IMG/VR virus record: IMGVR_UViG_3300044613_003869 | Coordinates: 1 to 20,427 of that record | Length of the DNA: 20,427 nt | Source of the DNA: a virus | Strand: one strand, 5' to 3' | Part shown: piece after piece, positions 4,461 through 10,621 of the stretch | How positions within the stretch are numbered: the stretch's first letter is position 1 | How the letters are laid out: every line of letters begins with the position of its first letter | The notes under the pieces: model-generated | The model's database searches: none | What the model was told of the DNA's origin: nothing | The model's input: only the letters and a program-made list of their open reading frames with translations | Program-made: the position numbers and the translations under genes

Positions 4461-4533
4461 TGACCCATAGCTCAGATGGTAGAGCGTCGAACTGTTAATT
4501 CGAATGTCCCAGGATCGAGGCCTGGTGGGTCAG
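4461..4533 (+). tRNA. tRNA-Asn (GTT)
   Basis: A full cloverleaf of 73 nt. The acceptor TGACCCA/TGGGTCA is fully paired, the D-stem is GCTC/GAGC, the anticodon stem is TCGAA/TTCGA with loop CTGTTAA (anticodon GTT), and the T-stem is CCAGG/CCTGG. The T-loop reads ATCGAGG where TTCRANN is usual, so the normal T54 is A. CCA is not encoded. Confidence 0.9.
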
Positions 4534-4537
4534 CAAT

Positions 4538-4611
4538 GCGGATGTTGCATATCGGTAGTGCCTCTGCCTTCCAAGCAGAAGGGGTGAGTTCAATTCTCAT
4601 CATCCGCTCCA
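4538..4611 (+). tRNA. tRNA-Gly (TCC), CCA encoded
   Basis: Acceptor GCGGATG/CATCCGC, anticodon stem TCTGC/GCAGA with loop CTTCCAA (anticodon TCC, reading GGA), and a T-loop TTCAATT. Discriminator T and CCA are encoded at 4608-4611. It lies 4 nt after tRNA-Asn, so one transcript is likely. Confidence 0.92.
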
Positions 4612-5056: not shown

Positions 5057-5129
5057 CCCTTCGTAGCTCAGAGGATAGAGCGAGGCTCTTCTAAGGCCTG
5101 CGTCACACGTTCGAATCGTGTCGAGGGGG
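5057..5129 (+). tRNA. tRNA-Arg (TCT)
   Basis: 73 nt: acceptor CCCTTCG/CGAGGGG (one T-G pair), D-stem GCTC/GAGC, anticodon stem AGGCT/GGCCT with loop CTTCTAA (anticodon TCT, reading AGA), T-stem ACACG/CGTGT with loop TTCGAAT. CCA is not encoded. It ends 6 bp from the stop of the convergent glycosyltransferase gene. Confidence 0.92.
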
Positions 5130-5134
5130 CAAGA

Positions 5135-5806
5135 TTACCAATACAGGTGTACTTTTTTAACGTGCCCAACTCTAACGCTTGGGTCTATGTGAAATTTAAA
5201 TCCGCTTATCTTAGCTTTTTTAATAAAAGAAACATCTTCTGATACTAAATCTACAAAATACTCTCCAGGTTGTAGCATTTTTTTCTCCTCCACATGAGAA
5301 AACCAAGGCCTTTGTATTTTTTCAAAAACACCATTTTTTATGCAGGTAAACCCAAGTCCAGATGCAAACGCTTCAAAAATATCTTTCCTACTTCTTATAT
5401 CTTCGTACATCATTACTTTATTTTCTTTTTCATAAACCGTTGTGCTAATTCCATTAGATTGAATATATGCTCCAGAGATAATATCTTTTTCTGATAAATA
5501 TAAAGCCATAAAATCTTCAGATTCCCAAAATATATCAGAGTCTATTAAAAATATTTTATTATATGAAATATTCTCTGTAAGTGGCCTAGAAAACTCAGAT
5601 ATTGGAATAAAGTTATCGCTGTTTAAAATAGTATTTTCCCTAGCAATTGAAACATCAGAGTTCATTTTTGAAATAAATTTCCAGGTTATTCCAAGCTCGT
5701 TTAATTTATTTATTGTGTGTACAAGGGATAGGACGTATGCATTTTCCATACTGGCTCCTGGAGTTGCTATTATTACATCGTAGTGTGGATTTTGATATTG
5801 ACCCAT
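5135..5806 (-). CDS. Glycosyltransferase, GT-A-like (223 aa)
   Basis: Predicted nucleotide-sugar-dependent glycosyltransferase. The start VIIATPGASM (residues 11-20) opens the Rossmann-like fold. FLIDSDIFW (86-94) carries the DxD motif that binds the metal and nucleotide sugar, residues 147-155 have the AFASGLGFT turn, SED (189-191) is a likely acceptor-site acid motif, and HID (206-208) with GHVKK (214-218) holds the His usual at the end of such folds. No membrane segment. It is led by its own promoter (5831-5859) with weak SD (AGGGCGG). Phage glycosyltransferases modify host surface sugars, virion proteins or phage DNA; the target is unknown. Length (223 aa) fits a single-domain GT-A enzyme. 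Confidence 0.75.
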   Translation of the reverse strand: MGQYQNPHYDVIIATPGASMENAYVLSLVHTINKLNELGITWKFISKMNSDVSIARENTILNSDNFIPISEFSRPLTENISYNKIFLIDSDIFWESEDFMALYLSEKDIISGAYIQSNGISTTVYEKENKVMMYEDIRSRKDIFEAFASGLGFTCIKNGVFEKIQRPWFSHVEEKKMLQPGEYFVDLVSEDVSFIKKAKISGFKFHIDPSVRVGHVKKVHLYW

Positions 5807-5830
5807 ATCCGCCCTTTTCTATAGACTTTA

Positions 5831-5859: not shown

Positions 5860-5863
5860 TAGC

Positions 5864-5895
5864 AAAAAACCCAATCGGAGGCGGATCCAATTGGG
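5864..5895 (-). terminator. Rho-independent terminator (leftward)
   Basis: On the minus strand CCCAAT pairs with ATTGGG around a 14-nt loop and is followed by TTTTTT. It ends the predicted small RNA and would also stop readthrough from 6001-7511. The loop includes CCGCCTCC. Confidence 0.75.
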
Positions 5896-5959
5896 CCTTG
5901 CTAGTGTATTGCTACACATTATACGGGGAGCTTAATCTGTGGGATGCTACAACCCGTAC
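5864..5959 (-). ncRNA. Predicted 96-nt small RNA with anti-Shine-Dalgarno loop
   Basis: A strong promoter (5966-5994) fires left with predicted +1 at 5959 and transcription ends at the terminator at 5864. No frame is usable. The RNA can fold into a stem GUACGGG/CCCGUAU (5953-5959 with 5921-5927), a hairpin GUGU-N6-ACAC, and the terminator hairpin whose loop exposes CCGCCUCC. Two more C-rich patches (AUCCC, GCUCCCC) are present. C-rich single-stranded loops facing the Shine-Dalgarno sequence are well known in Gram-positive regulatory RNAs. Target genes cannot be named from the window. Alternatives: a leader remnant, or an RNA sponge for a host sRNA. Confidence 0.6.
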
Positions 5960-5965
5960 TAATAA

Positions 5966-5994
5966 AGTATAAAATAACTTATGTTTTAAGTCAA
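5966..5994 (-). promoter_or_regulatory. Strong leftward promoter TTGACT-N17-TATACT
   Basis: Near consensus, placed 6 bp after the stop of the gene at 6001. The next thing downstream is the predicted small RNA rather than a gene. Confidence 0.75.
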
Positions 5995-6000
5995 CTGTTT

Positions 6001-6288
6001 TTAGTCCCAAAGTAATTTTTTATTTGGGTCAGCTTTCCAAGGCTTCTCTGTATATTTTTCATCTTTAGTTAAATCGTAAAGTATTTCCATTAAGACTCTG
6101 CAATCATCATGTTTCCACGATATATAGCAGTTACCATTTTCTACATTTAAGCATTTGTTTAAATATGACTCTATCTTCTCAACCATCCAATTTAAAGCTT
6201 CAGAGGATTTTGTAGTGTCTTCGTAACCGTTCTTTTTAGCCCGATTCATTTTATAGGCAATTTGGTCGATGTATAATTTATTCACCAT
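6001..6288 (-). CDS. 95-aa hypothetical protein
   Basis: The product is basic in its first half and rich in Trp/Tyr/Lys near the C terminus (KPWKADPNKKLLWD). Residues 8-60 are probably helical (KLYIDQIAYKMNRAKKNG... MVEKIESYLNKC). The start is not certain: ATG 6288 lies 1 nt after AGGAG, GTG 6285 lies 4 nt after it, and a GTG at 6303 would add 5 residues. Gene context: last gene of the leftward cluster under the 7545-7574 promoter, overlapping the preceding gene. No known family. Confidence 0.6.
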   Translation of the reverse strand: MVNKLYIDQIAYKMNRAKKNGYEDTTKSSEALNWMVEKIESYLNKCLNVENGNCYISWKHDDCRVLMEILYDLTKDEKYTEKPWKADPNKKLLWD

Positions 6289-6464
6289 TCTCCTATTGGA
6301 CACATAGGAAATTCTGATTTTACAATATCAATTATATTTTTTTCTTCAATAATACATGTTTCATCTACTTCTGAAAATAAACTACATTTTAAACAAACTG
6401 GTAGCACCTGAGAATAGTAATTTTGATACTGATCTTCCTTGCTTTCAAATTCATTTAGATTCAT
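6282..6464 (-). CDS. 60-aa Cys-containing protein
   Basis: CLKC at residues 24-27, Cys37 and Cys55 (FPMCPIGEW) may form a four-Cys metal or iron-sulfur site; the order CxxC-x9-C-x17-C is not one I recognise. The chosen ATG at 6464 is 6 nt after AGGAG; longer readings from upstream ATGs would overlap the preceding gene by far more. It overlaps that gene by 14 nt, so they are probably translationally coupled. Confidence 0.65.
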   Translation of the reverse strand: MNLNEFESKEDQYQNYYSQVLPVCLKCSLFSEVDETCIIEEKNIIDIVKSEFPMCPIGEW

Positions 6465-6956: not shown

Positions 6957-7511
6957 CTAATTTTTGAATTCCGTTAAGAACTCCTGGTATCTTGCCCCAT
7001 TCAGGGAAGACCATGATGACCAATCGGTTCCGCCTTTAGTCATATAATACGTTATCTCTGCATTTATTACTGGATCAAATAATGTGATATTTGACTTTAA
7101 TTCAAATTTTTCTTTACGATCTACGCCGAGGTTACCCAACATATTGATCTGAAAAATTCCGTAGGAACTGTCTCCAGTTTTCCTGTTACCATTGTAAGCC
7201 ATAGGCCTTGCATTGGATTCTGACTTAGCAATAGCCCAAGCCTGTTTAAGGGCTCTTCCTTCAAAACCAACAGCTGATAGAAGTTCTTTTAGTTCTCTGT
7301 CTGTTAGCGTCTCAGAAGGCTTGTACACAGTAGTGCTGTACTTCTCTAAGGTTTCTTTCTTTAGTTGTACTGTAGATTTCACAGGTGTTTCCACCTGCAA
7401 TGCTTGAGTAATTGTTGGCCCAGGCTGGACAGTAAATAAGAATAATGTTATCATTCCTATATAAGACCAGTTATGAGCAACATCGCTCAAACGTTGTTTG
7501 ATATTCTCCAT
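6957..7511 (-). CDS. Membrane-anchored lysin with lysozyme-like transglycosylase domain
   Basis: A predicted peptidoglycan-degrading enzyme of the SLT/lysozyme-like superfamily. Residues 1-14 are cytoplasmic and basic, 15-29 (WSYIGMITLFLFTVQ) are a membrane or signal-anchor helix, 30-70 a linker, and 71-184 the catalytic domain: SES with likely catalytic Glu98, then GDSSYGIFQIN (113-123), and an aromatic C-terminal segment with WSSW. The ATG at 7511 lies 8 nt from AAAGGAGG, while the ATG at 7517 is only 2 nt from it, so 184 aa is preferred. With the holin-like protein at 10695 this may make up the lysis system, though the signal anchor suggests export independent of a holin, or a virion-associated enzyme. 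The promoter is at 7545-7574. Confidence 0.8.
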   Translation of the reverse strand: MENIKQRLSDVAHNWSYIGMITLFLFTVQPGPTITQALQVETPVKSTVQLKKETLEKYSTTVYKPSETLTDRELKELLSAVGFEGRALKQAWAIAKSESNARPMAYNGNRKTGDSSYGIFQINMLGNLGVDRKEKFELKSNITLFDPVINAEITYYMTKGGTDWSSWSSLNGARYQEFLTEFKN

Positions 7512-7544
7512 TGGCATTTCCTCCTTTAGAGATAACGAACTATA

Positions 7545-8654: not shown

Positions 8655-8665
8655 CCGCAAGGCGG
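8655..8665 (+). promoter_or_regulatory. Short hairpin CCGCAAGGCGG before the reductase
   Basis: A 4-bp GC stem with a 3-base loop in the 89-bp gap, 22 nt before the ATG and overlapping the upstream end of the ribosome site region. Too small to be a riboswitch. Confidence 0.35.
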
Positions 8666-8686
8666 AGAAAAGGTGTTATTTAAAAA

Positions 8687-10621
8687 ATGTCAAAAACTAT
8701 TGCTAACCCATACGAAAACTTCATAGCTCTATCTCGATACGCAAGATGGATTCCAGAAGAAGGTCGTCGTGAAACTTGGGGCGAAACAGTAGATCGATAT
8801 TTTGATTTTATGCTAGGCCACCTAGAAAAGAATCATGGATACAAACCATCAGGCAAGCTTGTTGAAGAATTAAAAGAAGCAGTATTTAATAGAAACGTTA
8901 TGCCTTCAATGAGATCTGTAATGACTTCAGGCGCAGCTTTGGAAAGAGATAACGTAGCAGGATACAATTGTTCATTTGTTCCAGTAGATAATCCAAGATC
9001 ATTTGATGAGACTATGTATATCCTTATGTGCGGTACGGGTGTTGGATTCTCTGTTGAATATAAGTATGTAAATAAACTTCCTTCTGTTCCAGAATCTTTA
9101 GAAAAATCAGATACAGTAATTGTTGTTGAAGATTCAAAGCAAGGATGGGCTAAAGCATACCGTGAACTTCTAGCCTTGCTATGGACAGGACATATTCCAG
9201 CAATTGATGTAAGCAAGGTTCGCCCAGCGGGTGCACGTCTTAAGACGATGGGCGGGCGTTCATCTGGACCACAACCGCTTGTTAATCTTTTTGACTTTAC
9301 AATTGCAAAGTTTAAGAATGCAGTAGGTCGTCAACTAAAACCTATTGAAGCACATGATATTATGTGCAAAATTGGTGAAGTAGTTGTAGTAGGTGGAGTA
9401 AGACGCTCTGCCATGATTTCTCTTTCTAATATTAATGATATTGAAATGGCGGCAGCAAAGTCTGGTAACTGGTGGGAAAATAATACTCAACGTGCACTTT
9501 CAAATAACTCTGTGGCATACTCTCGTAAGCCAGCAATGGAGCAATTTATAGCAGAATGGAAAAATTTATATGACTCAAAGTCTGGTGAACGTGGAATCTA
9601 CAACGTTGCAGCAGCACAAGCGCAAGCAGCTAAATATGGACGAAGGGATCCTGAGATACACTATGGAACAAACCCTTGCTCAGAAATTATTTTGCGTCCT
9701 TATCAGTTTTGTAACCTTTCAGAAGTCGTATTACGTGAAAAAGATACAAATGAGGATGTTGCAAATAAAGTACGCCTTGCAACGATTCTTGGAACATGGC
9801 AGTCAACCCTAACAGATTTTAAATATCTTCGTAAAATTTGGAAAGACAACACAGAGGAGGAAAGGCTGCTTGGCGTTTCTTTAACTGGCCAGTTTGGCCA
9901 CAAATTCTTTTCTGGAAAGCAAGGACTTGATAAACTAGAAAAAGTTCTTTCTAGTCTTCGTGAGTATGCTCGTGAAATGAATAAAGAAGAGGCTGGGAAA
10001 ATTGGGATTCCTGAGTCTGCAGCTATTACATGCGTAAAGCCTTCTGGAACAGTATCTCAATTGGTCGGGGTATCTTCAGGAATGCATCCATGGCATTCAC
10101 CGTATTATATTCGTACAGTTCGTGGCTCAAAGGGAGATCCAATCTCTACATTTTTGAAGGAAGTAGGAATTCCAGTAGAAGATGATGTAATGAAGCCAAA
10201 CGACACATACGTATTCTCATTTCCAGTTAAGGCGCCAGAGGGTGCAATTGTTAGAAATGATCTAACAGCCCTGGATCATTTAAACACATGGCTAGTTTAT
10301 CAACGTGCATGGTGTGAGCATAAGCCATCTATTACTGTTTCTGTAAAAGAAGACGAATGGATGGAGGTTGGAGCTTGGGTATACAAGCATTTTGATGAGG
10401 TATCTGGAATTTCATTCTTACCTCACTCTGACCATACATATAAGCAAGCCCCGTATCAAGAAGTAACTAAGGAAGAATATGATTCCCTACTCGCACAGAT
10501 GCCTAAGTCTATTCGTTGGGAAGATTTATCATTTTATGAAACAGAAGACGGAACTTCTACAAACGCCACCCTTGCCTGTACATCTGATGGAAATTGTGAG
10601 ATTGTAGACATTTCTGCATAA
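8687..10621 (+). CDS. nrdJ: Class II (adenosylcobalamin-dependent) ribonucleotide reductase
   Basis: Reduces ribonucleotides (probably triphosphates) to deoxyribonucleotides using adenosylcobalamin, so no separate radical subunit is needed. The start YARWIPEEGRRETW (18-31) matches the N terminus of the monomeric Lactobacillus-type triphosphate reductase. Active-site residues are visible: Cys95, Asn329-Pro-Cys331-Ser-Glu333 (radical Cys and Glu), Cys342 (11 residues on, as in that family), a phosphate-binding PSGTVS (452-457), and the C-terminal redox pair Cys631/Cys637. At 644 aa it is shorter than the about 739-aa reference. SD GGAGAAAAGG precedes ATG 8687. Typical phage supply of dNTPs during replication; the host must provide or import B12. 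Confidence 0.93.
   Translation: MSKTIANPYENFIALSRYARWIPEEGRRETWGETVDRYFDFMLGHLEKNHGYKPSGKLVEELKEAVFNRNVMPSMRSVMTSGAALERDNVAGYNCSFVPVDNPRSFDETMYILMCGTGVGFSVEYKYVNKLPSVPESLEKSDTVIVVEDSKQGWAKAYRELLALLWTGHIPAIDVSKVRPAGARLKTMGGRSSGPQPLVNLFDFTIAKFKNAVGRQLKPIEAHDIMCKIGEVVVVGGVRRSAMISLSNINDIEMAAAKSGNWWENNTQRALSNNSVAYSRKPAMEQFIAEWKNLYDSKSGERGIYNVAAAQAQAAKYGRRDPEIHYGTNPCSEIILRPYQFCNLSEVVLREKDTNEDVANKVRLATILGTWQSTLTDFKYLRKIWKDNTEEERLLGVSLTGQFGHKFFSGKQGLDKLEKVLSSLREYAREMNKEEAGKIGIPESAAITCVKPSGTVSQLVGVSSGMHPWHSPYYIRTVRGSKGDPISTFLKEVGIPVEDDVMKPNDTYVFSFPVKAPEGAIVRNDLTALDHLNTWLVYQRAWCEHKPSITVSVKEDEWMEVGAWVYKHFDEVSGISFLPHSDHTYKQAPYQEVTKEEYDSLLAQMPKSIRWEDLSFYETEDGTSTNATLACTSDGNCEIVDISA

Follow-up and report, generated by a model that had tools for sequence, protein, structure and literature searches.

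What is encoded by a stretch of phage DNA that is bracketed by a promoter and a terminator and holds no gene is the question raised by an intergenic region of IMG/VR virus record IMGVR_UViG_3300044613_003869, of which positions 1 to 20,427 (20,427 nucleotides, hereafter the window) were analysed. The initial annotation, made from the letters alone, had predicted a phage small RNA here. The near-consensus promoter (TTGACT-N17-TATACT) and the U-tract terminator on which it relied are both present, and both lie on the minus strand, which it had not named (Table 1). The minus-strand RNA folds with a predicted energy of -39 kcal/mol (z = -5.1), a stability that none of 200 shuffled sequences equals, versus an unremarkable fold of the plus strand (z = -1.3), and the predicted fold contains both the 7-bp outer stem and the second hairpin that had been described. 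The terminator loop had been described as exposing CCGCCUCC; the loop proper, closed by an A-U pair, is UCCGCC, and CCGCCUCC is only partly exposed because the UCC that follows UCCGCC is paired with GGA. Of the two further C-rich patches, CAUCCCAC does lie in the loop region of hairpin 1, whereas most of CUCCCC is base-paired within stem 1. The placement of the site between lysin and glycosyltransferase genes holds on one side only, the glycosyltransferase-like gene being directly downstream and the lysin-like gene not adjacent.

Table 1. Features of the window in and around the putative small RNA.
Feature	Position	Strand	Remarks
Glycosyltransferase-like gene (phrog_1574)	5135..5806	-	Downstream of sRNA
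GGCGGA at ribosome-binding site of glycosyltransferase-like gene, possible target	5808..5813	-	3' of sRNA
Small RNA, three hairpins, about 96-100 nt	5864..5960	-	RNA start about 5960
Hairpin 3 and U-tract, intrinsic terminator	5864..5899	-	U-tract 5869-5864
6-nt loop UCCGCC, proposed seed	5880..5885	-	Near-invariant in family
Hairpin 2	5904..5917	-	GUGUA-GCAA-UACAC
Hairpin 1	5921..5959	-	7-bp outer stem, GUYG bulge, loop region with CAUCCCAC
sRNA promoter	5966..5994	-	-35 TTGACT 5994-5989, 17-nt spacer, -10 TATACT 5971-5966
100-aa gene, function unassigned	6001-6303	-	Upstream of sRNA
Lysin-like gene	6957-7517		SLT_3 domain; further upstream, beyond 100-aa gene
GGCGGA in nrdJ leader, possible target	8661..8666	+	Also 3' arm of local hairpin CCGC-AA-GGCGG
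nrdJ, B12-dependent ribonucleotide reductase gene	8687..10621	+	Pfam PF02867, PF21995

The element in the window (covariance model match at 5861-5960 on the minus strand, 71 bits) belongs to an RNA family that is present in well over 100 IMG/VR contigs. Nineteen nucleotides of the terminator hairpin are matched exactly in 79 IMG/VR stretches and a looser stem pattern in 112, of which L114, among those inspected, is plainly a chance match; in the sequence flanking the matches, the promoter and hairpins are retained while their letters change. There is about one copy per phage of ~100-115 kb, and a copy is present in almost all records of ~95 kb or more, the exception being G048. Loci that were retrieved by homology to the 100-aa neighbour protein and not to the RNA (L088, L090-L096, L098-L100) also have the sRNA, and covariance model R3, which was built without L101 and L102, detects their divergent copies, in which the stem differs and the loop is UCCGCC. 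Hairpin 2 is absent from some short members (L108, L109). No match to the RNA was obtained with cmscan from Rfam at the gathering threshold and at E <= 5; blastn against cultured phages gave weak fragments only; and one scan of bacterial genomes with one fixed pattern gave 11 matches, none with the RNA on inspection, which are judged to be due to chance because they are without the three-hairpin RNA and the U-tract. The initial annotation thus undersold the element, and among the papers searched no description of the family was found.

The covariation check that had been proposed was run on an alignment (A6) of 51 members to the covariance model, A6 and R3 both consisting of real matches only. 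Compensatory changes were found in 24 of 30 base pairs: 10 of the 12 model pairs of hairpin 1, all five pairs of hairpin 2 and nine of the 13 pairs of hairpin 3. In this alignment, 97.5% of cells pair, versus 30-46% when the partners are slid, and none of 500 shuffles reaches any covariation measure; the counts lean towards structure because the structure guided the alignment, and the contrast with the controls is large. A sigma-70-type promoter (at least 9 of 12 matches) precedes 63 of 71 non-redundant members, with about 11.5 expected from shuffles, and its -10 usually ends 3-7 nt ahead of hairpin 1. Changes of length among members preserve no reading frame. The whole unit from promoter to terminator is conserved with covariation, more than by chance; judged by its sequence it would be an independent transcription unit with its own promoter and terminator, and it has the conserved, covarying structure required of a trans-acting sRNA.

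Within this structure, the constrained piece is the loop and not the surrounding C-rich string, since the loop is near-fixed while its flanks covary. When the stem was held fixed and the six loop bases were left free, 80 stretches were found, 78 of them with UCCGCC (77 as scanned and L104 on the other strand), the other two (L103 and L105) being unrelated sequence. UCCGCC is present in all 56 full sense matches among the nrdJ-homology loci, where the loop flanks change in concert (GGA/UCU, GGA/UCC, GAA/UUU, AGA/UCU); the flanks in L101 and L102 are UAA/UUA, and the sole loop exception is CCCGCC in L369 of G038. The CUCC part of CCGCCUCC covaries with the stem (CUCC, CUCU, CUUU, CUUA). Thus, where a generic anti-Shine-Dalgarno sequence CCGCCUCC had been proposed, a terminator loop directed at ribosome-binding sites is supported, but CCGCCUCC itself is not conserved. 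Mimicry of the 16S 3' end, in which UGGAUCCGCCUCC would resemble UGGAUCACCUCC, was considered and rejected in view of the covariation of the GGA/UCC part (GAA/UUU in L090, UAA/UUA in L101).

The exact complement of the loop is GGCGGA, a rare six-letter word that stands before a few phage genes. Targets with strong Shine-Dalgarno sequences had been suggested as a possibility; the word at a few specific phage leaders is not GGAGG but this unusual one. The prediction of GGCGGA was written after two examples had been noticed and before the genome-wide test of genes. Among six near-complete phages, GGCGG is a conserved leader word in three ortholog groups, and GGTGG and GGGGG in none. Among 1302 leaders of nine phages, GGCGGA occurs 33 times versus 6.4 expected and AGGCGG 33 times versus 4.3 expected, and the words that rank above these two are mostly Shine-Dalgarno-like, promoter-like or A-rich. 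When a 6-mer was slid along the sRNA and its complement counted in 126 families, the loop complement was found 114 times versus 6.9 expected; the complements of only two 6-mers, both spanning the loop, are strongly enriched (~15-fold), every other position remains below 6-fold, and the adjoining AUCCGC and CGCCUC reach just 2-3-fold. Because the MGDRANF and nrdJ loci had been selected for looking like targets, the less biased weight lies with the six-phage ortholog test and the nine-phage test. Enrichment at ribosome-binding sites is in any case a general property of G-rich words (GGGGG 4.4-fold, GGTGG 2.4-fold, GGCGG 4.0-fold).

In the HWFNP small-protein family, of which six aligned members are only 23-43% identical to the first, GGCGGA lies near the start codon in 47 of 48 distinct leaders, and the remaining leader has GGUGGG, which still pairs by wobble. 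Leaders of the MGDRANF family have GGCGG in 24 of 31 distinct cases, the others being mostly AAAGGA-like; 39 records of cultured phages, for the most part Streptomyces phages, contain homologs, and GGCGG was not found in the leaders of these homologs in five cultured phages, StarPlatinum among them. The word is also present in six of seven distinct leaders of the glycosyltransferase-like family (as GGCGG), in three of six leaders of the DnaB-like helicase and in two of six leaders of DNA polymerase III alpha. With the exceptions of G048 and G038, the conserved exposed seed is accompanied by conserved complementary sites in unlinked mRNAs. The nrdJ gene, which has GGCGG in 72 of 77 leaders, was downgraded as a clean target because its GGCGG mostly forms the 3' arm of a small hairpin, and some loci (L209, L233-L235) have the hairpin without GGCGG; the match may reflect this local hairpin.

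We consider it likely that the element is a trans-acting phage sRNA that uses its terminator loop to pair at the ribosome-binding sites of genes of the same phage, with repression the most likely effect. The RNA of ~96-100 nt would be transcribed by host RNA polymerase from a sigma-70-type promoter of its own, hairpins 1 and 2 would form the body, and the terminator hairpin would present UCCGCC for pairing with GGCGGA overlapping or immediately after the ribosome-binding site in a few phage mRNAs. The predicted regulon comprises the HWFNP protein, the MGDRANF protein, the glycosyltransferase-like gene and sometimes the DnaB-like helicase, with nrdJ and DNA polymerase III alpha as further possible members; pairing would block ribosome loading, and would thereby time or limit a gene set that includes replication genes. 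The promoter, structure, loop and terminator, all conserved, and the complementary word at gene starts support the model at the level of sequence, and from them we infer transcription, physical pairing, repression in preference to activation, and timing. The seed of 6 bp is short, which counts against the model. The earlier proposal of a phage riboregulator is strongly supported as regards a conserved, covarying family, but the conserved candidate targets are phage genes with GGCGGA and not genes with strong Shine-Dalgarno sequences.

Two phages limit the claim of sRNA and targets. In G048, which is near-complete at 115 kb, no sRNA was found by the covariance model and a plain terminator with a GAAA loop occupies its place (L229 8400-8464), and GGCGG is retained at the HWFNP leader, the MGDRANF leader and one third leader; the sRNA has apparently been lost, so the word may serve some other purpose, or the sRNA may have disappeared only recently. 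In G038 (L369 1500-1580), the sRNA is divergent, with the exceptional loop noted above and an altered hairpin 1, and the leaders still have GGCGGA. The leaders of G048, and the general enrichment of G-rich words at gene starts, would fit an explanation in which these phages use GGCGGA in its own right, as a weak or special ribosome-binding word, and the loop is kept for a protein or for host mRNAs, their match being a by-product of the resemblance of both to Shine-Dalgarno sequences. We regard this as unlikely, given that the C in GGCGGA disrupts pairing with the 16S tail (the established anti-Shine-Dalgarno sequence being CCUCC), that the base before the word in MGDRANF leaders is A, T or C, that enrichment stops at the borders of the loop, and that the control words are unconserved in orthologs.

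Very unlikely, in our estimate, is an sRNA whose main targets are host mRNAs that carry GGCGGA or G-rich ribosome-binding sites, as in host takeover, with phage targets secondary: the single copy, the host-type promoter and the complementarity of the loop to G-rich leaders would suit such a role, as would the effects of known phage sRNAs on host genes (PMC12197685), but conserved GGCGGA leaders were observed in the phages' own genes among the phage leaders examined. Still less probable is a conserved terminator or attenuator that acts in cis on downstream genes; although a strong terminator ends the RNA and TATAAT promoter-like sequences or genes often come directly after it, the RNA has its own promoter just ahead of hairpin 1, the sequence after it differs between phages, and a cis terminator needs no near-invariant loop beside a freely changing stem. 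A coincidental promoter and terminator, or instead a short protein-coding gene, has a negligible probability despite the frequency of promoter-like matches in this region (14 found, 8 expected), being already refuted by covariation and opposed by the conserved promoter and the frame-breaking changes of length between members.

The proposed trans-acting sRNA has partial counterparts among known regulators. The loops of the Listeria LhrC family and of the staphylococcal Rsa RNAs, terminator loop included, act on Shine-Dalgarno regions, as is predicted here; those RNAs are encoded by bacterial chromosomes and direct CU-rich motifs against generic Shine-Dalgarno sequences, whereas this one is a phage sRNA without an Rfam match. 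The RegA protein of phage T4 is a translational repressor of a set of phage mRNAs, to whose leaders it binds; one phage factor would likewise act on a set of phage leaders here, but as an RNA by base pairing. The structured actinobacterial sRNA 6C/B11 (Mycobacterium, RF01066) has, in the passage that PMC10470900 devotes to it (citing Mai et al. 2019), C-rich loops that pair with G-rich ribosome-binding sites and repress, and so resembles the present RNA, for which pairing of a C-rich hairpin loop with such sites is predicted. Unlike 6C, which has two C-string loops, the present RNA is phage-encoded, has three hairpins and a single terminator loop UCCGCC, and has phage genes as its conserved candidate targets; the 6C covariance model gave no match with cmscan at the gathering threshold and at E <= 5, and in place of two hairpins with C-run loops the family has a CAUCCCAC-type loop in hairpin 1 of one subgroup only, a 4-nt loop in hairpin 2 and UCCGCC in hairpin 3. 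VpdS of VP882, OOP and PreS of lambda, and 24B_1 of phi24B are phage-encoded, as this RNA is, and act on phage and/or host mRNAs (PMC12197685), an action that is here predicted. They are individual RNAs of temperate phages, some of them Hfq-linked, in contrast to a family across many uncultured phages in which the seed loop is near-fixed and many leaders have the word that matches it.

Phage sRNAs have so far been known mostly singly, from temperate phages of model hosts, and the present family is deeply conserved and occurs in abundant uncultured phages. We would give an even chance to the broader idea that a clade of freshwater actinophages has a private translational code, made up of a fixed six-base loop and the non-Shine-Dalgarno word GGCGGA at each regulated gene start; if so, a phage regulon including replication genes would be switched by RNA pairing and not by a repressor protein. 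Since the sequence shows the RNA as well as its likely target sites, direct tests become possible of the regulon, of how it evolved and of how it was lost (G048), and the putative regulon offers a first handle on two phage protein families of unassigned function, HWFNP and MGDRANF.

Relatives by gene order are Streptomyces phages of the Stanwilliamsviridae: nrdJ is ~66% identical to theirs, and the gene order (glycosyltransferase, HNH, transglycosylase on the minus strand, then glycosyltransferase and nrdJ on the plus strand) is shared with Jay2Jay. The carriers of the sRNA are freshwater viruses, and their host is probably an actinobacterium. A search of the whole records of StarPlatinum and Jay2Jay, run without a positive control of its own, gave no sRNA match; a weak 19-bit model match in Jay2Jay (L263 4738-4817) lies between genes near nrdJ and consists of a small hairpin and a terminator in which the loop differs.

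Several minor observations concern other elements of these phages. Just past the sRNA terminator in L011, L081, L107, L108 and others, TATAAT is found very near upstream of a start codon (e.g., GTGGTATAATTATATTATG), which suggests leaderless or very short-leader transcripts. Words like AACGAAAGG are common in leaders, CGAAAG occurring 49 times versus 2.9 expected in nine phage records. Ahead of nrdJ, the conserved hairpin CCGC-AA-GGCGG is followed by AGAAAAGG (8655-8686 in the window, and the leaders of L186-L262), and its variants preserve pairing (CUGCC-AGA-GGGCAG in L209, UCGC-AUAU-GGCGA in L233); it is perhaps a separate leader element. The window also has genes for tRNA-Asn, tRNA-Gly and tRNA-Arg at 4461-4611 and 5057-5130, of which tRNA-Arg was called by ARAGORN and not by Rfam at its threshold, and these lie near genes that by appearance are putative HNH endonucleases.
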